The notes under the pieces are model-generated. The model had not been told where the DNA came from. It worked only from the letters and a program-made list of their open reading frames with translations, and ran no database searches. Below, piece after piece: positions 1 to 14,541 of a DNA stretch of 24,952 bases; position 1 is the first letter of the stretch, and the number at the start of each line of letters is the position of its first letter. The DNA lies in the IMG/VR virus record IMGVR_UViG_3300032087_001037, positions 1-24,952 of that record, one strand, 5' to 3'. The DNA comes from a virus. Made by a program: the position numbers and the translations under genes.

Positions 1-3000
1 GCAAAACTATCAGCCATTTGCGTAGGTATAAAACCTTTTTGTAATAAATATCTTAATATAGCGGCTGGCTTGTTATTAGATGTATTCATTGCTTGTGCTA
101 TTTCAGCTTCATTAACATCTGTTTGTAAACCTCTTCTTCTTTGCTTTAACATGTCTGAGTTAAATATCGTAGCAAAGTCTTTAGCATATTGCTTTGTGTT
201 TAGTATAGCTTTACCAAACTTAACTGGATTATTATCTGACCAGTTAATAAAGTTAAATAAAGATATTGTTTGTAAAGTCGCCGATCTAAAGTTAAAGAAC
301 ATGATAGCACCAACAGAGTTGTTAACCCAATTTAAAAACGAGTTTGTAAGCTTATTGTTACCACTTTGTCTATTAGTACCGTTTTCCATACGGTATAATA
401 TATCTTCTAACGCGCTTCTAAAATCATCACCATATGTAGCTTGGATTTTATTTAAGTTATCTTTACTGAATATTTCGTTTTTGTTTTCTATAAAGTCACC
501 TAAATATTTTTTTCTACCAACTCTTTGAGTTATATCATTTATATCAGATACGATAGTACCTATAACCCAGTTTTCACTTGGCTCAGGGAAGTTTTTCTTA
601 CCAGTAATATTATTTAATACCTCAGCATAGCTTTTTAAATCAGCATCAGCTGCTACTATTTCTGATAATCTTTTTTGATCAGTCTTTGATATACCAGGTA
701 TTTTATAATTTAATTTATCCCATAAATAAACTCTAATAGCAGCATCATATGTAAAGTCGTTATAAGCTGTTTTTCTTGACAATAGTTTTTTAACTTGAGG
801 ATAAAACTTACCAAGCTCCCTATAGTTTTTAGCATAAGCTTCTTTAGCGCTGTTTATTTCCTGTATACCTCTAGTAAAAGGTTTTATTAAGTTATCTTCA
901 AAGAATTTTAATTGAGTTTCACCTTGTTTACCTTTACCTAAAAAGCTGTATATAAGACCAACAAAGTCTTCAGCTGAAGGTGGTAAAAAGAAAGTAAACT
1001 TATCAGCACCTCGACCTCTTGATTTTGCCGCAGCATCAGAAAATACTTTTTGTGCTTCAATACCTTTTGTTTGCTCCAATATATTATTAAATCCTTCACT
1101 TAAGCTAAACTGTATCTTAGCTTGTTGTACATCAGATTTAACATCTATTTGATTTAAAACATCTTGTACTGCTTTTACATTTTTATAAGCATCATCAGCG
1201 AAATAAAAATTATTATAACCTTCAGCTGCTTTGTCTATAATCCAGTCAGCTTTTGCTTGTGGTGTACCATTTTCTAAGCCAGTTATATTTTCTATAGGTA
1301 TTTCTAATCCTATACCTTTTAAAAAAGCGTGTATCGCGTAAGCTGCTTCTTGTGGTCTTGCTGTTAATACAAATATGTCTTTGCTAGTAAACTTATCTTG
1401 TCTTCTTAGTGCTAGTTCAAATAAAGGACCTTTCTTACCATCAATAACTTTATTGAACTCACTAAAATCAAATGTAGCGCCTATGGATTCAAAGCCTTCA
1501 GCATCTTTTGCAAATTCAGTTGCGTTTATTTTTGTTGTAGCTTCGCTAGTCAATTTAACCTTTCCATCAGCCCATGTTTCATAACCATATTGTTTACCAG
1601 CTACTATATATGGTGGGTTGTTAACTATAACTTGACTGTTTGTTTGAGCTAAAGTGTCATCAAAGTCAAATACACTAATACCTTTTTCAGGTTTGTTTTT
1701 TAATCTACCTTGCTGTTTAGCTTCTAATATTTTACTGTTTTTATTAACCTCATTTATAGATAATTGTAACTGAGATGATATTTTTAAACCTTGGTTGTTT
1801 ATATTAAAGTCTTCTAAAAATGATTTACCTGTTTCTGCATTTATTAAGTTTTCTGTACCTACAAATCCTAACGCAGCCATTGTTTCATTAAAATATCTTT
1901 CAAACCAGTTGTTATCAAACACGTTCCATTCACCCGTAAGATCCATATTGTTTTTTAAATCACTTTGATCTAGCTTTTTATTATCAGCGTAGCTTATACC
2001 AATAAGTTTATAGTTATTTTTTAAAGCAGCTAATGTAGACTGAAAGTTTTGATTAGAATCCATTATAGAATCTATTAACGTAACGTAAGCGTTTACATTT
2101 TGTAGAGCATGCTCTAAATAAACTTTACCAGTATTAGTTTGATCATAGTATGTAAACTCAGCGCCACCTCTATGCATGTGTGTTTTAGAGTTTACAGCGT
2201 TTTCTAAAAACTGTAAAACAACACCAAGAGCTTCTGGATTTTTAGTTAATATTTCATTTATGTTATTCCAAAAGGCGTCAAAGTTTATACCAGCCTGTTT
2301 ATTATATTCAGGTATTTTTGATTTATTTTTTTGTATATCTTTTACTGTTTTACCAACGTATGTAGCAAAATCTCTTTTAGGATAATTACCTCTTACAAAT
2401 TTTATATTATTTAACTTCTCTCTCAAATATATTTTTACTGGTTTATAATTTCTTAAATTAAGACCGTTTACAAATTCACCAGCTGTTAATAAACCTGGGT
2501 GGTTTTTTGCAAATACAGGATATATATAATTTAAAACACCACTTACATAAGCGTCTACAGCCATAAATCCATCATCTATACTTTTTCTTGAGTTTCCAGT
2601 TACATCAGGATATGTATTAAGTAAATCATATTTACTAGCTAAGTCTATACTTGTTTTACTAAATTGTATTTCTTGAGTACCAGCTGCTACATCTTGAATA
2701 ATGTTAGCAGATGCTCCTTGCTCTTTTAGTTTTTGCCTAACTATGGTGTTTGTTATTAATTTGTCACCTAAATTTAATAAAGCTTTTTGTACTTGTGCTT
2801 CGGCTGATCTAGGTGATAGACCTTCAACTGGATTACCATTTTTATCTATACCAGCTTTTTCTAAAAATTGAGTATCATTTAATTTATCTAAAGCATGTGG
2901 GTATAAGTTATCTGCTCTATCTTGTTTAGTGTAATAAGCGTTTAATAAAGATTTTTGAACACCAGTTGATGTGCCTATTAATTTATCCGATGCAGCCTCT

Positions 3001-6000
3001 AGAACAGCACCTTTTGGCATAAGTTTTCTAAATAATGTTTTAGATTCAAATATAAACTTAGATGCTTTTATTAAATCAGCTTTACTAAAGTTGTTAGCTG
3101 GTTTTAATTTACTAACTGGTATACCAACAGCTTCAGCTATAATAGCTTCGCCCTGTCCTTTTACGTTTTTAAAACTTACATTATCAGTATCTATATTATC
3201 CAAAGTAACAGTTTCGTTATAAGCTTTTTTAAACTTAGGTTTAACTATATCTCTAGGATCTATCTTTGTAACTGGTTTGGTCTTTTTTGTTTCTACAGGT
3301 TGATCTGCTATTTGTTGAGTTGTATCATCTATACTTGTTGTAAACTGACTACCTTCGTCTTTACCTAAAATTCTATCAGCAATTTCAACATATCTTTTAA
3401 AACCTGTTTTTGTAGAAAAAGCATTATTTAAATAACCGGATAATGGTGCAGGTTCTTTACCTTGTAATTGTTGTTTCTTAACATACTCAGGATAACTTCT
3501 TATAACATCTAACATACCTCTTTCACCTGTTTGTATTTCGTCTACAAGTATATCTGCAAACTCAGAATAATTAGGTCTTTGTTCATATCTACGAGCTATA
3601 CCTTGAGCTGTAGGCCTTAATACATTTAACATTTCAAAAGCACTAAGATCTGTTATACCTTGCTCTCTATATATGTCATTTACTAACTGTGAATCTACAG
3701 CATTTAAAGAAAATTGTGCTTCTGAAAGCGTAGCCTGTTCAGCTGTTATTGGTCCTATTTCATCTAACAAAGCTTGAGATATTTGACCTTCTTTAACACT
3801 ATCTGTGTACTCTTGCATAAACTTTAACACGTCTTCTGCTTTATTAAAATCTATGTTTTTATAACCAAACTTTCTAAGTATGTTTATAATAAATTGTTTT
3901 ACGTTACCTACAAATCCTTTATCTTTAAATAAACTTTTTACTTGCATAGCGGCTGCAGATGTATCACTTGGGTTTAGCATGTCTGACATGACTGTAAGAT
4001 ATTCTTGATGCTGTTTGCCTCTTTTATAACCCCTATCCTGCATCCTTTTTATAATAGCTGCATTGATATTATCTGGTAATATTCTTTGCATATCATTCAT
4101 TAAAGCCTTTTGGTTTTTGACTTTAGAATTAAGGATGCCGTGTAGCAATTCATGCGCACCAACGTTTAGCTGTAAAGTATTAGCTGCGGCCTCTTTATTT
4201 ATATATATTACGCCATCTTGAATAAAGCCACCTACACGATTTAATTGAGATTTTTGTTTATTTGTTAATTTTATTTTATTGTCTTTTATTGCTTTATTAA
4301 AGCCTTTTGTAGTGTTTTCTATTACAGTTTTTAAACCAAGTTTTTTAGCACCTGTTTCAGCAAATCTAGCGGTTTCCTCTGTTTTTCTTTTTGCAATAGC
4401 ATCTGCAACTCTTGATCTATCTGCTTCATTTTGTAAAGTAGCTTTTGACTTTCTACCTTTCCTTGAGTACTTAGAATTTATGTCTTTTATTTGACTTTGT
4501 ATATCAGCTAATTGAGCTTTAGCAAAAGATGAATCCTTACCTATAAATTTTAAAGCTCTTCTTTCTAATTCAAATAAAGCATCTCTATCTGTTTTATTTG
4601 TAATTCTTGGATCTATATTTGATTTTAATTGCGTTTCTTGTTGTATCTTACTTACGTATTGCGCTAGCTCATTGTCATTTTTAATAACAATATCCATAGC
4701 TGTTATCTCCTCGTTTGTAGCTGTATCAATAATATCTTGCATTTGTTGAGGCGTAACATCTTTACCATCGATAGAATATTTAGTGCCTTTTCTAACGTTT
4801 GATAATAAACTCACAGCTCCAGTAACAGGAGCACCACCTAGTCCTATAACGCCTTCGTTAATTATTTCACCAGCATCTAGTTCTTTACCTTGTATTGTTA
4901 AACCAACAGCTTCACCAGTCATACCACCAACAACTTCTGACGCGCCAACTACACCACTTGCTTTTATAGTACTAGCTTTTGGTATAAACCTTGAGCTTCT
5001 AACTACAGCTGTTTTTGCAGAGCTTGATATTATTTTTGAAGCGCCAGCACCTCCAGCAAGAGTAAATACAGATTCAATAACACCTATACCTATACCTCTT
5101 GCGGCAGCTTGGTTACGTGCTTTATCATAAAAATCTTCATCTTGAAATAATACTCTTAAATTCTGTACATTTCTTGCTAAACCTCTTTCTGCTAGCTCTT
5201 CATCTAACGACTGTTTAAAACTCATTAAAGCATCGTTATAAGCATTAATACCTCCCCAAATACCAGCAACTCCACCAACAGTAGCCCCTTTTGGTCCACC
5301 AACTAAAAAACCACCTGCAGCACCACCAGCTCCAGCACCAAGACCAGCTTTAACACTTTCAAGGTTAATCATACCTCCCATACTAGCTAAAAATTGTTCT
5401 GTCATGAAAGAAGCACCACCAGTAGCTGACGTTGCTCTCATCCAAGCAACAACACCATTTGTGCCTTTTTGTTTTTCTTCTTCATATACTTTTTGCCAAA
5501 GCTTAGTTGCTCTACTAGGCCCACCATTTTCTTCTAGTTCTTCTGCTGCAGCTATAAATTTAGCTATATCTTCATCTGTCACACCTTCAGGATTAAACTT
5601 CATAACATTAGCTATATCATCAGCTGAAAAAGCTCTATATTTACCCTGATAGTATCCACCCACAACAGCATCAACAAAACCATCCCAAGAACTAGCATAG
5701 TCACTTTCTATAGTGTTATTAGTATAAGATCCATCAGCTGCATAATCACCATAATACTCAGGTGCTTCTGTAAAGAACTGCTCATTAAAAGCATCATAGC
5801 CTTTAGTGTATATTCTTTGCTCTTCTAAATAATTATGTAATTTTTGTCTACTTCCTTCGTCGTGAAATTGTTCTGTGAATTTATCAAACGGTTTAGTGTA
5901 TATACCGTTTTCAACTAAATGTTTGTATAGTTTAGGTAGGCTTTTTTTAGTTTTTTCAAGATGTAATCTTCTTTCTTGTTCTGCTATCCTTTCTTGTTCT

Positions 6001-6107
6001 TCAAGATACTTATCGTAATCGTCTTGTGCTTCTTGATGTTTATCAGTAATGTTGTAGCTAGCGCCAGCAATGTTATACTGGCTAGTCATAAACTTAGCAT
6101 CACTCAT
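1..6107 (-). CDS. Giant ejection/cargo protein with zincin motif and HAD phosphatase domain (partial)
   Basis: The frame opens at the ATG at 6105-6107, after an A-rich leader, and has no stop before base 1. At least 2035 residues are visible and the C-terminus lies outside the window. Residues about 15-110 are helical and charged. Segments around 245-290 and 335-430 are Gly/Ala-rich and hydrophobic (GAGAGGAAGGFLVGGPKGA). An HELLH motif at 652-656 with E702 downstream matches a gluzincin-like metalloprotease. A HAD-type phosphatase set follows: DFDDT (D1481, D1483), LTARP (T1582), a Lys-containing stretch near 1619-1626 and FADD (D1638, D1639). The later region has FFLPPSAEDFVGLIYSFLGKG near 1705-1725 and SLFNFINWSDNNP near 1945-1957, resembling conserved segments I recall from giant marine phage proteins. 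Delivery into the host with the DNA is inferred from size, segments and position. Confidence 0.85.
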   Translation of the reverse strand, partial: MSDAKFMTSQYNIAGASYNITDKHQEAQDDYDKYLEEQERIAEQERRLHLEKTKKSLPKLYKHLVENGIYTKPFDKFTEQFHDEGSRQKLHNYLEEQRIYTKGYDAFNEQFFTEAPEYYGDYAADGSYTNNTIESDYASSWDGFVDAVVGGYYQGKYRAFSADDIANVMKFNPEGVTDEDIAKFIAAAEELEENGGPSRATKLWQKVYEEEKQKGTNGVVAWMRATSATGGASFMTEQFLASMGGMINLESVKAGLGAGAGGAAGGFLVGGPKGATVGGVAGIWGGINAYNDALMSFKQSLDEELAERGLARNVQNLRVLFQDEDFYDKARNQAAARGIGIGVIESVFTLAGGAGASKIISSSAKTAVVRSSRFIPKASTIKASGVVGASEVVGGMTGEAVGLTIQGKELDAGEIINEGVIGLGGAPVTGAVSLLSNVRKGTKYSIDGKDVTPQQMQDIIDTATNEEITAMDIVIKNDNELAQYVSKIQQETQLKSNIDPRITNKTDRDALFELERRALKFIGKDSSFAKAQLADIQSQIKDINSKYSRKGRKSKATLQNEADRSRVADAIAKRKTEETARFAETGAKKLGLKTVIENTTKGFNKAIKDNKIKLTNKQKSQLNRVGGFIQDGVIYINKEAAANTLQLNVGAHELLHGILNSKVKNQKALMNDMQRILPDNINAAIIKRMQDRGYKRGKQHQEYLTVMSDMLNPSDTSAAAMQVKSLFKDKGFVGNVKQFIINILRKFGYKNIDFNKAEDVLKFMQEYTDSVKEGQISQALLDEIGPITAEQATLSEAQFSLNAVDSQLVNDIYREQGITDLSAFEMLNVLRPTAQGIARRYEQRPNYSEFADILVDEIQTGERGMLDVIRSYPEYVKKQQLQGKEPAPLSGYLNNAFSTKTGFKRYVEIADRILGKDEGSQFTTSIDDTTQQIADQPVETKKTKPVTKIDPRDIVKPKFKKAYNETVTLDNIDTDNVSFKNVKGQGEAIIAEAVGIPVSKLKPANNFSKADLIKASKFIFESKTLFRKLMPKGAVLEAASDKLIGTSTGVQKSLLNAYYTKQDRADNLYPHALDKLNDTQFLEKAGIDKNGNPVEGLSPRSAEAQVQKALLNLGDKLITNTIVRQKLKEQGASANIIQDVAAGTQEIQFSKTSIDLASKYDLLNTYPDVTGNSRKSIDDGFMAVDAYVSGVLNYIYPVFAKNHPGLLTAGEFVNGLNLRNYKPVKIYLREKLNNIKFVRGNYPKRDFATYVGKTVKDIQKNKSKIPEYNKQAGINFDAFWNNINEILTKNPEALGVVLQFLENAVNSKTHMHRGGAEFTYYDQTNTGKVYLEHALQNVNAYVTLIDSIMDSNQNFQSTLAALKNNYKLIGISYADNKKLDQSDLKNNMDLTGEWNVFDNNWFERYFNETMAALGFVGTENLINAETGKSFLEDFNINNQGLKISSQLQLSINEVNKNSKILEAKQQGRLKNKPEKGISVFDFDDTLAQTNSQVIVNNPPYIVAGKQYGYETWADGKVKLTSEATTKINATEFAKDAEGFESIGATFDFSEFNKVIDGKKGPLFELALRRQDKFTSKDIFVLTARPQEAAYAIHAFLKGIGLEIPIENITGLENGTPQAKADWIIDKAAEGYNNFYFADDAYKNVKAVQDVLNQIDVKSDVQQAKIQFSLSEGFNNILEQTKGIEAQKVFSDAAAKSRGRGADKFTFFLPPSAEDFVGLIYSFLGKGKQGETQLKFFEDNLIKPFTRGIQEINSAKEAYAKNYRELGKFYPQVKKLLSRKTAYNDFTYDAAIRVYLWDKLNYKIPGISKTDQKRLSEIVAADADLKSYAEVLNNITGKKNFPEPSENWVIGTIVSDINDITQRVGRKKYLGDFIENKNEIFSKDNLNKIQATYGDDFRSALEDILYRMENGTNRQSGNNKLTNSFLNWVNNSVGAIMFFNFRSATLQTISLFNFINWSDNNPVKFGKAILNTKQYAKDFATIFNSDMLKQRRRGLQTDVNEAEIAQAMNTSNNKPAAILRYLLQKGFIPTQMADSF

Positions 6108-6118
6108 ATTTTTTTTGT

Positions 6119-7387
6119 TTAAAAGTTATCAGCAGCACCAACGTTTGAATTAGTTTGCTCGTTTGTTTCTTCTGTATTCTCTTCTTGTGTAAGCTGTGGC
6201 CAATATATAGGATCAATTTTAGCATATCTTAAAATATCAAGAAAAGATTTTGGATCGCCAAGATCTATAATTTTACCGTCTATATAGAATACACCATCGT
6301 CTTCCTGTATTTCGATGTTTGTAGGTAAATAAAGCTCTATGTCATTTATATTTTTATTATTAAACGCATCAATAAGTTTATTTACTTTGTTTTGATTTTT
6401 AATATCTGTAGCTGTAGGTTTGTTTGTTCTACTAGTTGTTCTTGTGTTTGTTGATTTAGGCCTTTTACTAACACCAGTTTGTGATTGTTTAATTAACACT
6501 TTCATAAAATTATCTACAGTAGCATCTCTAAGTTGATCAAAACCTATAGATCCGTTTCTAAAACCTTCTATCATTTTCTGCATTATAGGATCTTCAGCCA
6601 TAACTATATCACCAACTAATCCGTCATATAACATAGACATAATAGTATTTTTACCTCCTTGATCTATTAATCTTTTTAAAGTATTTTGATATTGATGGTA
6701 CATTATACTATCAGGAGTTAAAGTAACACCACTTTTATAACCATTTTGATAAACTTGACTACCCATGGTCATCATTTTTTCTGCGGTTTCATAGTCTTTA
6801 ATACCATAATCAGGTAAATCGTTTAAAGATATTTTACCATCTTCACCTATAAAAAATAAATTACCAGTGTCGTCTATTTCTAACTCATATTCTTCGTTAA
6901 ATATACCTCTAAGTAAATTTACACTTTCTTGATTTTCGCCATATAATGATATTGTTTGACCCTCTATATCATCTATAATTTCTTTTTTGTTTTGGCCATA
7001 AAGCTTAAATTGTTTATCTAGATTTTCAAAAGCAGATTTTACATTATTCATTTTGCTTACAGTTTGCATATAATCGTCTGATCCAACAACTAACTCATCA
7101 AGTATATTAGCAGCTCTAACGTATTCATTTTTTTGTTTAGATAAATAATTAGATAATGTATTTCTGTATTTATCTGGTATTTGTGACAAATCAATATCAG
7201 CAGGTAATTGCTTTAAATAATTTCTTAGCTTCTGCTCATATAAATTTTTAACAGACTTAGTTTTATTTTTAGAAGCAATACCATTAGCATATGCCTCTTG
7301 ATAACCAGCATCAAAAGCGTTTGTTGCGTTTACAAATCTACGTGTTCCATATATCGCGCTGTAATCTACATTTGTATATCTAGCCAT
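6119..7387 (-). CDS. Helical protein of unknown function, probable internal virion protein
   Basis: I chose the ATG at 7385-7387 (protein starting MARYTNVDYS, 422 residues) over one 33 bases upstream. The longer start would overlap the previous gene, while the shorter one follows AAAATAAAAATT, the leader style of its neighbours. The first 180 residues are mostly helical and charged. A short beta stretch, GNLFFIGEDGKISLNDLPDYG, lies near residues 183-203. A Lys/Arg/Thr-rich low-complexity linker (KRPKSTNTRTTSRTNKPT, about 305-322) then leads into a compact C-terminal part with DGVFYIDGKIIDLG. The tail is acidic and Asn/Gln-rich. I do not recognise a family. Its place between the Gln/Ala-rich protein and the giant protein suggests it is packaged or ejected with them. 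Confidence 0.75.
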   Translation of the reverse strand: MARYTNVDYSAIYGTRRFVNATNAFDAGYQEAYANGIASKNKTKSVKNLYEQKLRNYLKQLPADIDLSQIPDKYRNTLSNYLSKQKNEYVRAANILDELVVGSDDYMQTVSKMNNVKSAFENLDKQFKLYGQNKKEIIDDIEGQTISLYGENQESVNLLRGIFNEEYELEIDDTGNLFFIGEDGKISLNDLPDYGIKDYETAEKMMTMGSQVYQNGYKSGVTLTPDSIMYHQYQNTLKRLIDQGGKNTIMSMLYDGLVGDIVMAEDPIMQKMIEGFRNGSIGFDQLRDATVDNFMKVLIKQSQTGVSKRPKSTNTRTTSRTNKPTATDIKNQNKVNKLIDAFNNKNINDIELYLPTNIEIQEDDGVFYIDGKIIDLGDPKSFLDILRYAKIDPIYWPQLTQEENTEETNEQTNSNVGAADNF

Positions 7388-7397
7388 AATTTTTATT

Positions 7398-8027
7398 TTA
7401 TAAAGGAGTAGTACCTCCAAGAAGTGAACCAGCCATATCGCCTACACCTGATATAGCCATATTATCATGCATAGCTTTTTCAGCTTGTGCTTTTTGAAGA
7501 TCTTGACCTGTTAAATTCATCATACTTTCTATTTTAGAAAACTCAGCTTGTCTTTGCATTATATCACCTTGTATTTTTGAATCTTGTATTCTACCAGCTT
7601 CACCCATAGCAAGTCTTTGATTAGCTTGTTCTTGCTGACCAATACTAGCAGCCGCTTGTTGAGCGTTTTGTGATTGTTGCTGTGACATAGCTTGAGCTAA
7701 AGCAGCAATACCAGAACCACCAGCCGCAGCACCAAATTGATCCATCATATTAGCTTGTGACTGCATTTGCTGTTGTTTTATCATATCAGCTTGCTGTGTA
7801 TTAACTGTAGCATCCTCATATACGTTTTCCATAGTAGCATATGGATTAGAGGTGTCCATGTTTTCAAATCTTTGTTTTTGCATATCATATGCGCCTTGAG
7901 CTCTAGCTAAAGCTCTTTTTCTTTTACCTCCACCTATTAAACCTATCGCAGCTTTTGCAAGCCCAGGGGCTACTGCCGCGGCTATAGGCGCCAATTTTAA
8001 GGGTGATTCTCCTTGATATTTTTTCAT
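7398..8027 (-). CDS. Gln/Ala-rich internal virion (ejection) protein candidate
   Basis: This 209-residue protein has a hydrophobic Ala/Gly/Leu N-terminal segment (LAPIAAAVAPGLAKAAIGLIGGG, about residues 11-33) followed by basic residues (KRKRALAR). A long helical stretch rich in Gln, Ala and Met follows (residues about 75-180), and the end is Gly-rich (GVGDMAGSLLGGTTPL). In T7-like and related phages, small internal proteins with such an amphipathic start and coiled Gln/Ala body are ejected with the DNA and help form the channel through the host envelope. That parallel, together with its position just before larger internal proteins, is the basis of the call. The hydrophobic segment could also be read as a membrane anchor. 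The start codon has no Shine-Dalgarno sequence. Confidence 0.7.
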   Translation of the reverse strand: MKKYQGESPLKLAPIAAAVAPGLAKAAIGLIGGGKRKRALARAQGAYDMQKQRFENMDTSNPYATMENVYEDATVNTQQADMIKQQQMQSQANMMDQFGAAAGGSGIAALAQAMSQQQSQNAQQAAASIGQQEQANQRLAMGEAGRIQDSKIQGDIMQRQAEFSKIESMMNLTGQDLQKAQAEKAMHDNMAISGVGDMAGSLLGGTTPL

Positions 8028-8434: not shown

Positions 8435-10216
8435 TTAGCATGTTATACCATTTTGTTCATTTTCAGCATCAACTCTGCTATTGTAATACGTGTCATCTAG
8501 CGAATATGCTGTGGCACTAAATGTAGTTGTTGATCCTTTTACTTGACCTACCATTTCAGTACTACTACAACCACCAGCTATAGAAACTAATCTTATCCAT
8601 TTGTTTTCTATATTAGCAAAATTTAAACAAGTTACAGCTGTGCTACCACCACTACACCCAGTCGTTAAATGAACATAATGTTGTCCACTTAGGAAACCTC
8701 CTGAATTATATATATCAACTTTATAAGCTAATATAGTTCCACCACCACCACCACTACCACTAGGTAGATCACAAAAGTCATCAACATCAAAATTTATTAC
8801 AGTATCAGCTGTACCCATTTGATTTGTATACCAATTAGTACCTGTTATTGTTAGTAAATGGTGATTGTTTCCACCTCTTGTGGCAGTTATTGTACCAGCG
8901 TTTGTACTTGCTCTAGTTATGTCATTAGGCGTTATAGTGAAATCGTTACTATCTAAAATTATTGAAGTAGCCGAACCATTTGGTGATTTAAACTGAAATG
9001 ATTCGTTGTCCTCGATACTTACAGTAAAATTAAATTCAGAATTCGTTTCTGATCCATCTAATTCAATACCCGCTTGATTATACGTTGCATTGACCCCATT
9101 ACTTTGATTTATAGTAGTTCCAACATAATTAGTATAAGCTACAGTTTTACTTGTAAATGTACCTCTTGATACGGATGTAGCATCAACGGTAATGCTTTTA
9201 AAACCTTTTCTATCTATTGTAAAAGGGTTTGGTTGTGAGCTGTTTAAACTCAACGTTGTTGGTGACACAGCTGCTATTGTAAACGTATATGTTACATCAG
9301 CTGTAACAACAGGTAAATCAATTAACGTGCTTTGTTGACCATTACTAGCTATTGTTAACGTGCCAGAGTTTGTGCTAGCACTAGTAAAATCTTTTGTGCT
9401 AAAATCATAAGTGTGACTATCACCAGTTCTTGTTATGTTTATAGTATATGTAGCTCCAACAGCACCATAAACTATAAGACCTCTTTTAGTTAAAGCATAT
9501 GGAGCGTCTTCAGTGTTTATAGAATATGCTGTTATATTGTTTGGTGGAGCGGGAACAGTTTTAACATCGTTTGCTGTTATAAAAATCGTATCGCTTGTAT
9601 CAGTCTCTAAAGGTATTATACCGTCTACATCAAAAACAACGCTATTTAAATTATTATCATTATCATATCCTAGTGTTTTTGTTACAGAATAATTATTAAC
9701 ATCGCCTACAGATATTTTAAGTGAAGGTTCTGTTGCAAAATAATAACCAGCACTAGTGGTTACGGTTTGAGAAAATAAATCTACAGTTGTACCAGTTGAT
9801 CCCGTACCAGAATAAGCAACATTGGATACAGCACCACTTAAAGGCGTCATGTTAGCACTTGCTGCAGTAACGCTATATCTACCAGATAAAGTTTTAGGCA
9901 CGTCTTTTTCTAATATAGCTTTACCATCAATGTCTATTGTTATTGTTTGATTTGTAGTACCTGGGTTAAATGAATCATCAAGATCTACAGTAACTAAAAT
10001 AGTATTATCTTCAGCATAAGCAACACCACTATCAGACAATGTAATACTAGTAACACCTGTTAAAGTGCCACTGTTATTGGTAAATAACGAAGCTGCAACT
10101 CTATAACCAGTGTTTGGTGTTATAGTTAATACTTGATTAGCAACTCCACTACCTAATGCTTGTGATGGTGTTACCAAAACAGATGATGAATTTATAGTAC
10201 AATTAGTTAATGCCAT
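8435..10216 (-). CDS. Beta-rich tail fibre/adhesin with Gly linker and Cys-containing tip
   Basis: This 593-residue protein is almost entirely Ser/Thr/Asn/Gly-rich beta sequence with few charged helices, as in phage adhesins. The first two modules share a pattern (ITPNTGYRVAASLF and VTTSAGYYFATEPSL), suggesting tandem domains of about 100 residues. A second pair of similar short units, STNSGTLTIASNG near residue 275 and STNAGTITATRGG near 433, points to further repeats. A glycine linker, SGSGGGGG, at about 480-487 separates a C-terminal domain of about 100 residues. That domain has several cysteines (CSGGSTAVTC, GGCSST and a terminal Cys), while the body is nearly Cys-free. Receptor binding by this tip domain is inference. 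It starts within the stop of the 1441-aa gene (TAATG). Confidence 0.7.
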   Translation of the reverse strand: MALTNCTINSSSVLVTPSQALGSGVANQVLTITPNTGYRVAASLFTNNSGTLTGVTSITLSDSGVAYAEDNTILVTVDLDDSFNPGTTNQTITIDIDGKAILEKDVPKTLSGRYSVTAASANMTPLSGAVSNVAYSGTGSTGTTVDLFSQTVTTSAGYYFATEPSLKISVGDVNNYSVTKTLGYDNDNNLNSVVFDVDGIIPLETDTSDTIFITANDVKTVPAPPNNITAYSINTEDAPYALTKRGLIVYGAVGATYTINITRTGDSHTYDFSTKDFTSASTNSGTLTIASNGQQSTLIDLPVVTADVTYTFTIAAVSPTTLSLNSSQPNPFTIDRKGFKSITVDATSVSRGTFTSKTVAYTNYVGTTINQSNGVNATYNQAGIELDGSETNSEFNFTVSIEDNESFQFKSPNGSATSIILDSNDFTITPNDITRASTNAGTITATRGGNNHHLLTITGTNWYTNQMGTADTVINFDVDDFCDLPSGSGGGGGTILAYKVDIYNSGGFLSGQHYVHLTTGCSGGSTAVTCLNFANIENKWIRLVSIAGGCSSTEMVGQVKGSTTTFSATAYSLDDTYYNSRVDAENEQNGITC

Positions 10217-13200
10217 TAGTCGTTGTTTTCGTTTACTGTTATTGTTACACCGTAAGAATAATCATTACTAGCTGCTACAGATGCGTTACCTAATCCTTGA
10301 ACACTAAATTCGCTAGTATCTATATTAGTTGATGTTGGTGCAGTTCCTTTTATAAAATTAAACCACTTACCTTCTTTTTCTTCAAAATTTAATACCTGTC
10401 CACTTTGCTTATCAGATTCTATAGAATTTGACCACCAACCTGCTTTTTCAAATTTATTTGGAAAATAGTTGTCTGTATCAGCGCTACCGCTATTATCTTG
10501 AAATATTCTAGCTTGTGATCCTTCGTAATTTAATGTCTTAAATTGTTTAACAGAACCAGGAGCATCGTTGAATATAAACTTAATACTTGAATTATATTGA
10601 GTGCCATAAAAACTGTTTCTTGTTTGATTATCGTGAGACCAAAGTTGACCATCTTTAAATGTGTAATATATATTATTTAAACTAACACCTTCTTCTTGTA
10701 AAAAGCTTTTTCTACTCGTCCAAGCGTTTGTATCTTCTTTAAAACTAACAGTATCAAAGTTTAAAGTAACATTATATTCTTTTTTATAAGTATCATAGCT
10801 ACCTATCACAGTCGTAGAAGCCGCTAGATGGTCCTTAAAGTAATCTTCTAGTCCATAACGTGATATAGGCTCAAGTCCATCAGCAGAGAGCCTTAGAATC
10901 ACTCCTCTGGCTTTGTCTGAAAAATACGCTCTATAGCCATATTGCGTATAAGACTCAGGGTTTTTACTAATACCAAACTCACCTGTGTAAGGATTTGGTG
11001 TTCCTAATACGTTTGATGATACTGAAACTTGTTTACTACCATCAGCTGTAAATAATATATCTTTATTTGTAGGTATTTTAAAACATTTATCTTCACATAA
11101 AACATCTAAACCTCCGTGTCTATGTCTCATTAATTGTATTGAGCCATAAACAGGATTTATTGATTTAGTTATTTGATCTGCTTGTATAAATTGATTAGTA
11201 TTATTAGTACCACTAGTAGAGTTGTATAAACCAGAAAATATAACCTGGTTTGATTTTCTTTCTTCTGCATAAGGTATATCTAATACTGTACTAGCTTTTA
11301 TACCTTTTGTTATTTGAGCAGCGTTAAAATCATCTCTAATTCTATTTGACTCAACACCATTACCAAAACTAAAACAGTTAGAATAATCTAACGTTTGTTC
11401 ATTACCATGTACACTATCATCGTATGCTTGGCTTGCTTCATAAAAAAGATTTAAATCAGCAACTTCTTTTGGTTCTGTTTCAAATATAGCTGGATTATTA
11501 CTAGTAAAACCATCACCGTCAATATATGTATTTACAAATTCCATTCGAGTAGCTGTAGCTTTAGTTGTATGGCCATTATCTCCTGGTGCCCAATCTATAG
11601 CTTTATCTAATTTTAAAGTCCAGCATATCATTCTTTCACTACCATATCTACCTTTTCTATTATTACCACCTCTTCTATAAGGTATCCAATGTGTTCTTCT
11701 ATATGATTTTATAGTATATATAGTTTGATCTGGATCATCTTCAAATCTAAACTTTGAATTTCTTTGTTGAAAAAATCCTACAATTTTTCTATATTGTGGT
11801 TTAAAATCTCTTTCAAATCTATACCAAAAAGGCTCTCCATTTCTCCAAGCGTCTCTATCATCTCCACCCCACCAATGATAAGCTATTTCTATTATATCAC
11901 TACCTGAAACAACGCCATTACCAGCTGTACTTATAGCCGTATCTGGGTTTGAAAATTGACCTCTAATATGACCACCACCAGAAGCTGACGTGTCAAAACT
12001 ACCACCAGCATCTGATATTCTGTATAAGCCAGATTGTTTATTTATAAACCACTCCGCTTGTCTGCTATTTTCATTACTACCCGGATAAGTACCTTTTTCT
12101 GCACCTTGCCAAAAACTTTGAGAAGAACCATAGTTAGCTAGATCATATGTTTGTATTGAGGCGGCTATTTTATAATCATCTATATTTTCTTGCCTTAATA
12201 TATTTTCTTCAAGAACACCATCTCTTTCTATTTTAGCAAAAAACCTACCTTCAAACTCAGGTTTTAATTTTATTTGCTTTTGCGCTATTTCCATTGAAAC
12301 ACTATCATCACTTTGTAAATAAGCAGAAGCATCGCTGTTTCTAGCAAATCTCACGTCATCTTCCTCAAATTTTTCTTCTATTTCAACTCTATAATAAGCT
12401 GTAGCTGAATTACCTGTGTCAAAATACTGTATATTAGCTATGTCATACCACTGCGATATACCACCATTACCTATAATTCTTAGTACTAAATCTGATAGTT
12501 GATGTACTGGTATTTGATATACGTTGCTATCATTATCATTAGGACTACCACCACCAAAAACTTTTTCCCATGTAGATTTTAAAACAGAAACGTGACCAAA
12601 GTCTGCTTCTGGAAAATGACCATCGCCTTTAAATATATTTGTCCCAGAAGTGTCTGTGTTTGCTGATGATAAAACACCTTTCGAAACTTTGTCTTCTTTT
12701 AAAAATGTAGGCGCTTCGTTTGAAACTGCAATTACTTTATATCTAGCTTCGTCAGCAACAAAATCATTAGCATCGTGTCTCTTTTTTAATATTAAGAAAC
12801 TTTCATCTGTTATTTTATTTCTTTCAGACGATGCAAAAGCTATCCACACATTACCATCTTCAGCTTCATAATGTCTATCCATAGCCAAATTATAATACTC
12901 ATCAGATGATTCTTTTATATAGTATTTATATGATTCAGCCCAATGTGGTATTGCGCTTGTTATTCTTACTTTTATAACATTGTAATTTATAGCAGCAGAT
13001 TTATCTAACGTAAATGAACCAGACGGATCTGTAAATACAGGTGTTTCTCTACCGTACTTATCTCTATAAACTACACCAACTTGATATGTTCTTATAGATT
13101 TTATAGATGGTTTTGGTTCAGCTGGAACAACGTTTAAATTATCGTTTTGAACTATTGACACTTCAAACTTAACACTTATATCAGCACCAGAAGCGTCTTC

Positions 13201-14541
13201 AATATTAAAGTTTTCTAAATAATTACCATACATTATTCTATTAGCAGACAACGCTTGTGCTTTAGCTTTTCTAGGTACGTTATCAAAAGGTCTTAATGAT
13301 TGTATAGATGGTAAAACTTTAAATATAACATCAGACGTTATTTCAATCTCACCGTTAGTACCAGCTATATATTCAGGATCTGTAGTTTTTATACTTTGTA
13401 CAACGTATATATTATTATTAGAGCTTTCTTTATATAGTATATCTATTTCTTTAACACCATCAGGTGCGTTACTTGTAAATCCACCAATTTTTAAAGATCT
13501 TAAATTATTAACCATACCTTTATTATAACCGTTTTTTGGATCATAATTAAAATTGTCTGGTAAAAAAGCAACTGGGCTATAAGGTCCTATCGATGAATAT
13601 TCGTTATCATTAAACTTATATCTATATGAAAATTGAGGAAACTTAAACTCAAACATTGGTTTTTCTTCAATTAACTCTACTTTCCAGTTTTGTAAATTTT
13701 CTGCAATATCCTCTGGCACAACATCAAGGTTAACATTATATGTAGTTGAGCTTATTACTTGAGTCACACTTAATATAACTTCAATATCTGCTGAGTCGCC
13801 AATTTCTTCTAATAATGTTAATTTTAATTTATCACCCACTAAATAGTTTACAGCATTAGAAAATGTTACATTGCCATAATCTCCAGTGTCTAATAAATCA
13901 AAAGGTGAAGTTGTTTCTGTAAAAGACTTTTGTATTAATGAAGTTTCAACAACGCCAGTTCTCTTAGTTGCTGACATTGTAATGGTTGGAGGACTTAGTG
14001 GTGATTTTTTAATTACTGTTATTTGATCTTCAGTAAAATCAGCACTATTTATTTGTGTGTGAGTATAACTTGTGTTAGAACTGTTATAGCCTTTCCAAGT
14101 TTTTATATTTATCTTTTTAGGCTCAGTTTGATCGTCTGTCCAAAACAACAAATCATCTATTATATTTATACCAGTTATTAAATAAAACGTAGAAAAGTTT
14201 AATATATTATTTACGTCTACTAATACAGGTGAAACAACATTATTTGTTTGATCATATTCTAATATTATTGATTTAGTATCACTTGCTATAAACCAATATA
14301 TCATTTCTGTTTTAGAGTTTACGTAAGCACCTATACAAACAGGGTTGTTACCAAGGTTAGCCAACGCATTACCATAAGGTCTTCTATTACCTAATATATT
14401 TTGTACAGCTCCAACGTCACTAGCTTCAGAACTAGATACTTGTATGTTCAAAGCATCTCTATACTGACCGTTAGGAAGTATTCTTTCGTCGAGGTCCTTA
14501 TTCATAGCACCACCGCCGAACTGTCTCTTTACTTCTCGCAT
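10216..14541 (-). CDS. Very large tail hub, 'stabilization/muzzle'-like protein
   Basis: This 1441-residue protein begins with a striking motif: FGGGAMNKDLDERILPNGQY at residues 8-27, then RDALN and, further on, GAVQNILGNRRP. An N-terminal motif of the type GG-N-KD-LP-G-Y-DA-N-G-N occurs in large tail 'stabilization' or muzzle proteins of crAss-like and related phages, as I recall them. The remainder is beta-rich with many aromatic and Asp/Asn/Gly turns, including a basic patch around residues 940-970 (RGGNNRKGRYG). No transmembrane segment or signal peptide is visible. It would form the bulk of a short tail below the ring proteins. The downstream adhesin gene overlaps its stop by one base. 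Length, position and motif support a tail hub; the exact structural role is inferred. Confidence 0.7.
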   Translation of the reverse strand: MREVKRQFGGGAMNKDLDERILPNGQYRDALNIQVSSSEASDVGAVQNILGNRRPYGNALANLGNNPVCIGAYVNSKTEMIYWFIASDTKSIILEYDQTNNVVSPVLVDVNNILNFSTFYLITGINIIDDLLFWTDDQTEPKKINIKTWKGYNSSNTSYTHTQINSADFTEDQITVIKKSPLSPPTITMSATKRTGVVETSLIQKSFTETTSPFDLLDTGDYGNVTFSNAVNYLVGDKLKLTLLEEIGDSADIEVILSVTQVISSTTYNVNLDVVPEDIAENLQNWKVELIEEKPMFEFKFPQFSYRYKFNDNEYSSIGPYSPVAFLPDNFNYDPKNGYNKGMVNNLRSLKIGGFTSNAPDGVKEIDILYKESSNNNIYVVQSIKTTDPEYIAGTNGEIEITSDVIFKVLPSIQSLRPFDNVPRKAKAQALSANRIMYGNYLENFNIEDASGADISVKFEVSIVQNDNLNVVPAEPKPSIKSIRTYQVGVVYRDKYGRETPVFTDPSGSFTLDKSAAINYNVIKVRITSAIPHWAESYKYYIKESSDEYYNLAMDRHYEAEDGNVWIAFASSERNKITDESFLILKKRHDANDFVADEARYKVIAVSNEAPTFLKEDKVSKGVLSSANTDTSGTNIFKGDGHFPEADFGHVSVLKSTWEKVFGGGSPNDNDSNVYQIPVHQLSDLVLRIIGNGGISQWYDIANIQYFDTGNSATAYYRVEIEEKFEEDDVRFARNSDASAYLQSDDSVSMEIAQKQIKLKPEFEGRFFAKIERDGVLEENILRQENIDDYKIAASIQTYDLANYGSSQSFWQGAEKGTYPGSNENSRQAEWFINKQSGLYRISDAGGSFDTSASGGGHIRGQFSNPDTAISTAGNGVVSGSDIIEIAYHWWGGDDRDAWRNGEPFWYRFERDFKPQYRKIVGFFQQRNSKFRFEDDPDQTIYTIKSYRRTHWIPYRRGGNNRKGRYGSERMICWTLKLDKAIDWAPGDNGHTTKATATRMEFVNTYIDGDGFTSNNPAIFETEPKEVADLNLFYEASQAYDDSVHGNEQTLDYSNCFSFGNGVESNRIRDDFNAAQITKGIKASTVLDIPYAEERKSNQVIFSGLYNSTSGTNNTNQFIQADQITKSINPVYGSIQLMRHRHGGLDVLCEDKCFKIPTNKDILFTADGSKQVSVSSNVLGTPNPYTGEFGISKNPESYTQYGYRAYFSDKARGVILRLSADGLEPISRYGLEDYFKDHLAASTTVIGSYDTYKKEYNVTLNFDTVSFKEDTNAWTSRKSFLQEEGVSLNNIYYTFKDGQLWSHDNQTRNSFYGTQYNSSIKFIFNDAPGSVKQFKTLNYEGSQARIFQDNSGSADTDNYFPNKFEKAGWWSNSIESDKQSGQVLNFEEKEGKWFNFIKGTAPTSTNIDTSEFSVQGLGNASVAASNDYSYGVTITVNENND

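Follow-up and report, generated by a model that had tools for sequence, protein, structure and literature searches.

A giant phage protein, a proposed cargo polyprotein, with predicted zincin and HAD domains and recurring motifs at its domain joints

The giant protein encoded in this window, which is an entire viral contig of 24,952 bp, carries a predicted zincin-type metallopeptidase domain and a HAD phosphatase domain in one chain, with a short motif that recurs at the joints between domains and that changes between relatives together with the zincin sequence. The single chain, the motifs, their conservation, location and co-variation, and the position of the gene in the late module are all directly visible in the DNA and its translation. 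The reading that we favor, with somewhat better than even confidence, is that this is a polyvalent cargo polyprotein that would be cut at the joint motifs by its own zincin.

The giant gene and its late-module context

The giant gene, its terminal regions and its relevant neighbors are as follows.
3..6107, minus strand: proposed giant cargo polyprotein; of its 2,334 residues the window encodes the first 2,035, and the other 299 lie outside
5178..5417, minus strand: glycine/alanine-rich hydrophobic stretch, residues 231-310
3..1100, minus strand: C-terminal region from residue 1670 onward, conserved, with net positive charge, running past the window
6119..7387, minus strand: 422-aa protein just upstream of the giant, in an ejection/cargo position
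7398..8027, minus strand: Gln/Ala-rich protein of 209 aa, located where a small internal ejection protein would be expected
10216..14541, minus strand: muzzle-type tail protein of 1,441 aa with a crAss_MUZ_C domain

The giant gene starts with an ATG at position 6107 and runs for 2,035 codons without a stop to the window edge at position 3 of the minus strand, which bears out the frame of at least 2035 codons described in an earlier sequence-only reading of this DNA. That reading had also proposed recovering the rest of the gene, and this is provided by a 67,435-bp contig of the same DNA (1 mismatch in 16,107 bp) on which the gene is complete, with 2,334 aa. The gene is likewise a single frame, of 2,253-2,326 aa, in relatives of 89%, 75% and 45% identity. 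Because the near-identical contig and these relatives all keep one frame, an assembly error or split frame is excluded as the source of the giant gene, and with it the in-frame stop or misassembly that the sequence-only reading had named among the outcomes that would refute it. Across the giant gene dN/dS is 0.08-0.30, indicating purifying selection in each of its parts. The glycine-rich hydrophobic segments noted earlier are seen at residues 231-310, a stretch with no 19-residue segment of mean hydropathy above 1.5, glycine being most frequent at about 250-310.

TerL and portal are both nearest to those of a Manatee Spring podovirus assembly, followed by Flavobacterium elemo, Maribacter and Cellulophaga phages, with Tenacibaculum phages also among the closest isolates by these two proteins. 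Together with other virion proteins and the muzzle protein, whose match to PF25729 is above the curated cut-off, they share a late block with the giant gene, so that a crass-fold muzzle protein and a crass-type late module are both present. The order TerL, portal, virion proteins, muzzle-position protein, small proteins and terminal giant is common to elemoC, Cellulophaga phi38:1 and the Manatee Spring phage, where the terminal giants are gp20 (3,694 aa), gp101 (1,691 aa) and a protein of 3,859 aa, respectively. This gene order supports the earlier statement that the giant gene ends the late module. The phage, a marine virus of Bacteroidetes, is a podovirus whose relatives include the Flavobacterium elemo phages and Cellulophaga phages, and its muzzle is of the crassvirus type.

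Comparison with the syntenic genomes also suggests that the 422-aa and 209-aa proteins, neither of which has a family match, are putative ejection or cargo proteins. The giant itself is likely virion cargo since it occupies the gene position of the ejected cargo of phiCrAss001, where mass spectrometry of virions revealed gp45, gp46, gp47, gp49 and gp50, all proposed to be ejected (PMC10172136); the 'structural protein' annotation of both elemoC gp20 and phi38:1 gp101 points the same way. The phiCrAss001 cargo resembles the window giant in lying in the late module near the muzzle gene, in its very large size and in its predicted injection. However, the large phiCrAss001 cargo is RNA-polymerase-related, and the main text of that report mentions neither protease nor cleavage (PMC10172136).

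Domains of the giant protein and their distribution

Four domains could be delimited between the N-terminal and C-terminal parts of the chain.
3903..4400, minus strand: zincin-like metallopeptidase domain, residues 570-735
4140-4154, minus strand: zincin motif HELLH, residues 652-656
4002-4004, minus strand: third zincin ligand E702, within QEYxTxxSDM
2670..3704, minus strand: domain M1, residues 802-1146, helical
1773..2654, minus strand: domain M2, residues 1152-1445, with a conserved Glu-His pair
1122..1691, minus strand: HAD phosphatase domain, residues 1473-1662
1653-1667, minus strand: HAD motif I, DFDDT, residues 1481-1485
1353-1367, minus strand: HAD motif II, T1582 in LTARP
1251-1253, minus strand: HAD motif III, K1619
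1191-1196, minus strand: HAD motif IV, DD, residues 1638-1639

The presence of a zincin-type motif and a full HAD motif set in one chain, first pointed out in the sequence-only reading, is confirmed and extends to relatives. Specifically, HELLH, E702 and all HAD motifs show no change among the four closest members and are conserved in relatives of 45-89% identity. Across 49 diverse members the H, E and H of the zincin motif never vary and at least 90% have the third glutamate, and across 53 members the HAD catalytic motif residues are invariant. As judged from these alignments, conservation of both motif sets is far beyond chance.

The predicted order of elements in the zincin domain is a helix, strands, the HExxH helix and the glutamate helix, the same order that is given for polyvalent zincins in the main text of Iyer et al. 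(PMC5512222). The zincin profile also matches residues 1538-1669 of elemoC gp20 (hhalign E 5e-6), which shares with the window giant its location at the late-module end and contains AHEIFH, whereas M1, M2, HAD and the C-terminal part have no match to gp20 in profile comparison. Peptidase_M78 was matched at an E of 0.046. None of the curated LPD domains scored above threshold, and of the known polyvalent-associated domains (LPD, ArdC, DdrB-ParB and others) the single one seen was LPD37, in one member at an E of 0.023, below the cut-off; a polyvalent protein need not contain such a domain. A Foldseek search of BFVD returned unnamed viral proteins as best matches, with LPD/polyvalent-annotated proteins and a Cellulophaga phi17:2 structural protein among the weaker ones. 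Of the predicted structures, the HAD model falls in a HAD fold; the zincin was not clearly recognized when the two-domain model was searched against the PDB with Foldseek. Overall, the HELLH region is a predicted zincin-type metallopeptidase with putative protease activity. Three members have EEIFH, in which the first histidine is lost, and one of these (L079) still has motif recurrences of the kind described below.

The HAD domain is modeled with a pLDDT of ~85, and most of its best eleven PDB matches are HAD-type enzymes (best E 0.08, probability up to 0.92), so that model, PDB matches and profiles agree on a Rossmann-like HAD fold. The phrog_415 'polynucleotide kinase' profile matches the HAD region in 41 of the 53 members (best E 2e-8), and the TIGR01664 DNA 3'-phosphatase profile matches three members at an E of 0.001. 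From these profiles the domain is most likely a 3'-end or nucleotide phosphatase, and of the substrates suggested earlier nucleic acids fit well, given that the nearest profiles are polynucleotide-kinase-type 3'-end phosphatases. The same nearest profiles make an L-2-haloacid dehalogenase less likely. Note that the likeness to polynucleotide-kinase 3'-phosphatases includes the full HAD set and a profile match that in many members covers almost all of the domain, whereas the window giant has no recognized kinase part and embeds its HAD in a virion-type chain.

M1 was considered as a sigma factor. A profile of the zincin together with M1 had a sigma factor as its best PDB match (E 0.06), and in hhalign comparison phage sigma factors scored an E of 0.02, versus 0.10 for one reversed control. 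This assignment was dropped, as it found no support in Pfam, with a profile of M1 alone, with the Sigma70_r2 model or in a search for similar folds in the PDB.

Scanning viral contigs with the HAD part returned 142 related stretches, from which 80 loci were kept, most of them with one frame of 2,000-3,300 aa that has an HExxH upstream and a HAD downstream. Giants with both zincin and HAD are common in uncultured, mostly marine phage contigs. When the window protein and two relatives were used as queries, no zincin plus HAD protein was matched in the annotated phage collection, in keeping with the earlier remark that no characterized protein with this order comes to mind. A search for prophage copies among 84,980 genomes gave as its sole match a contig of 3.5 kb from a Bacteroidetes MAG. 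Among uncultured phages the order zincin, M1, M2, HAD and C-terminal part is common, and the annotated collection searched has no example of it.

With the zincin set and the HAD in one chain of 2,334 aa, the giant holds at least two unrelated enzymatic domains, and it is encoded with the virion genes of a portal-terminase phage. These features support the likeness to large polyvalent phage proteins proposed earlier, as the main text of Iyer et al. describes for P1 DdrB and similar proteins a long chain of unrelated domains encoded beside the virion genes of such phages (PMC5512222). The polyvalent zincins described there also have an HExxH with a later glutamate, and self-processing was proposed for them. 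The words 'phosphatase' and 'haloacid' are absent from that main text, and its passages covered here name no recurring joint motif. A further likeness is to the N4 virion RNA polymerase (gp50 type), a giant ejected protein of ~3,500 residues with an HExxH domain (PMC12633501), for which no demonstrated cutting by that domain was found in the literature covered. The window giant differs from it in having a HAD and no recognized RNA polymerase domain.

Recurring motifs at the domain joints

The window protein has xQ[F/L]S at 798, 1148, 1448 and 1666, which places one copy at each joint from the zincin onward.
3705..3719, minus strand: joint motif A, AQFSL (797-801), after the zincin; coil/loop, pLDDT ~60-70
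2655..2669, minus strand: joint motif B, IQFSK (1147-1151), at the M1/M2 joint; predicted disordered, pLDDT below ~50
1755..1769, minus strand: joint motif C, LQLSI (1447-1451), before the HAD; predicted helix start, pLDDT ~77
1101..1115, minus strand: joint motif D, IQFSL (1665-1669), directly after the HAD; disordered, pLDDT below 50

Aligned relatives keep the joints and differ in wording, with IQFSK (at four or five joints), KFSK, MASK/KASK or FNSMDL. The copies within a protein differ in codons, including use of both serine families (TCN versus AGY), indicating that the motif is conserved as protein and not as a DNA repeat, an origin that is therefore unsupported. Natural gene splits at joints in two loci (L018 and L038) were also considered and set aside, as the breaks resemble an assembly-type frameshift and a duplicated stretch.

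We measured recurrence in 55 representatives with the 7-mer that follows the HAD, which was chosen by position and not by motif, counting as a near copy at least 4 of 5 identical residues and using comparison members of less than 50% identity. Per 2,600 aa, near copies numbered 1.80 in a motif's own protein, 0.75 in other members, 0.71 in shuffled sequence and 0.38 for the reversed motif. The excess of own motifs over unrelated members is 2.4-fold (Wilcoxon 7e-8), a value as high being reached in 0 of 20,000 permutations, and in a clade-level test (40% single linkage) own exceeded others in 18 of 21 clades (p=8e-5). The recurrences concentrate at the joints, with a density per 1,000 aa of 2.0 directly behind the zincin and of 6.1 directly ahead of the HAD versus 0.43 elsewhere, while the motifs of other members reach 0.32 and 1.05 per 1,000 aa at the same two places. 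No own-motif recurrence was seen in 5 of the 55 representatives. The pattern was first spotted by eye and the tests came afterwards, not blind, though their anchor is independent of the motif.

One could argue that short linkers rich in Ser, Lys and Phe resemble each other by chance or composition, and that related proteins share them by descent. The motif is indeed short, single proteins lack significance on their own, and motif counts per protein showed no clear excess over shuffles, the signal being at the level of the family. However, the shuffled and reversed controls, the controls with other members' motifs in the same linkers, the clade tests and the differing codons of each copy all run against this explanation, which we regard as highly improbable. 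The motif is also largely particular to the giants, with [VILM]QFS occurring 49 times in their 46,200 aa versus once in 25,631 aa of neighboring frames.

Motif distance between members follows zincin distance once HAD and C-terminal distances are removed (partial Mantel r=0.33, p=0.0005), and does not follow HAD distance (partial r=-0.05) despite the site adjoining the HAD. There is a further correlation with C-terminal distance (partial r=0.27). As several separate joint copies change together, one common reader is needed, and the zincin is a candidate for this reader because it lies in the same chain and because self-processing has been proposed for polyvalent zincins. The main rival to cleavage reads the joint motifs as tags for docking or packaging, bound by a single partner such as a portal, ring or ejection protein, or aids for threading through the tail. 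Concerted change would then require just one shared reader and no protease, the motifs do track C-terminal distance too, and crassvirus cargo is thought to thread through the tail (PMC10172136). Yet a binding tag need not occur at each joint, copies lie between globular domains and flank the HAD on both sides, and motif drift tracks the zincin after controls. We consider such tags possible but unlikely.

Proposed processing and its products

Under the self-cutting reading, the chain would be made late and, we infer, packaged as virion cargo. The zincin, through HELLH and E702, would be the presumptive cutter at joints A-D, presumably either ahead of ejection through the tail, in the course of it or once it is complete. 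The predicted products are pieces of ~88 kDa (N-terminal part plus zincin), 39 kDa (M1), 33 kDa (M2), 24 kDa (HAD) and 74 kDa (C-terminal part) that would act separately, with the freed HAD most likely taking phosphates off nucleic-acid ends or nucleotides early in infection. Several observations weigh against this reading, namely the 5 representatives with no own-motif recurrence, the predicted helix start at site C, the recurrences in the EEIFH member L079, the PDB search in which the zincin was not recognized, and a best E of no better than 0.08 for the HAD fold matches. This is in line with the main text of Iyer et al. (2017), which predicts self-processing of polyvalent proteins by zincins and gives P1 DdrB as a processed example (PMC5512222).

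The sequence-only reading suggested that the protease could act on host proteins, and in that case the zincin would be mainly an effector that cuts such proteins after injection, with the joint motifs being incidental. Iyer et al. do count host targeting among the roles that such domains may have (PMC5512222), and the sequence around HExxH is variable between members, as it should be if an effector were in conflict with its host. This explanation leaves the repeated, protein-specific joint motifs and their link to the zincin unexplained, and we hold it to be decidedly unlikely. The single chain, both of its domains, the late position and the polyvalent likeness have thus stood up from the earlier interpretation, whereas cutting of host proteins is less supported, as the joint motifs and their co-variation point first to self-processing.

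It was the presence of zincins that led, in 2017, to the proposal that giant injected phage proteins process themselves, and the literature covered here names no recurring cut sites. The dozens of natural versions now at hand display candidate cut positions, a candidate read sequence and a joint change of site and protease domain, and they make the question of giant-protein self-processing directly testable. On a broader scale, we see about an even chance that a large, mostly marine family of Bacteroidetes phages delivers a self-cleaving polyprotein, each phage having a co-evolved protease/motif pair of its own, with a payload that includes a nucleic-acid 3'-end phosphatase. If so, it would be an injected toolkit with a logic comparable to that of RNA-virus polyproteins. 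The HAD would add a 3'-end-phosphatase-like enzyme to the possible tools of phage infection, one that would be suited to repairing or masking the ends that host nucleases leave.

Zincin motif variants in the family giants

The giant proteins from three of the viral genomes of this family (L049, L051 and L079) have EEIFH in place of HExxH, a substitution that likely marks loss of the protease. These giants could serve as natural controls for decay of the joint motifs, the short protein-specific repeats between domains that are the proposed zincin cutting sites. The giant protein of another family member, L072, has HExxH twice (HEIIH and HEDLH, at residues 1056 and 1152, a spacing of 96 residues), which is possibly a chance occurrence or a second motif that has now decayed.

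The HAD and M2 domains of the window protein

The HAD domain of the window protein has an insertion of ~22 residues in the interval from motif I to the cap (residues about 1495-1526; window 1530-1625) that is missing from relatives at 75-89% identity. In M2, the domain between joint motifs B and C (residues 1152-1445; window 1773-2654), a Glu-His pair is almost invariant while the remaining sequence is divergent, and this domain may perhaps be a further enzyme.

Tail protein and related phages

The 1,441-aa tail protein (window 10216-14541) contains a crassvirus muzzle C-terminal domain and is therefore a tail part common to these flavophage-like podoviruses and crassviruses. A relative genome, the 67 kb contig L112, encodes its own sigma-70-like factor of 255 aa (L112:2064-2828; PF04542, E 5e-8), a type found in five further family genomes.

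In the Maribacter phage Panino, the syntenic giant (PP540027.1 28228-33717) is annotated as a tRNA methyltransferase and lacks HExxH; the annotation of this phage also includes 15 tRNAs and a tmRNA. GroES is annotated adjoining TerL in Panino and in the Flavobacterium elemo phages, and both GroES and GroEL genes are annotated in the related Manatee Spring phage (MW202828.1 40671-42561).
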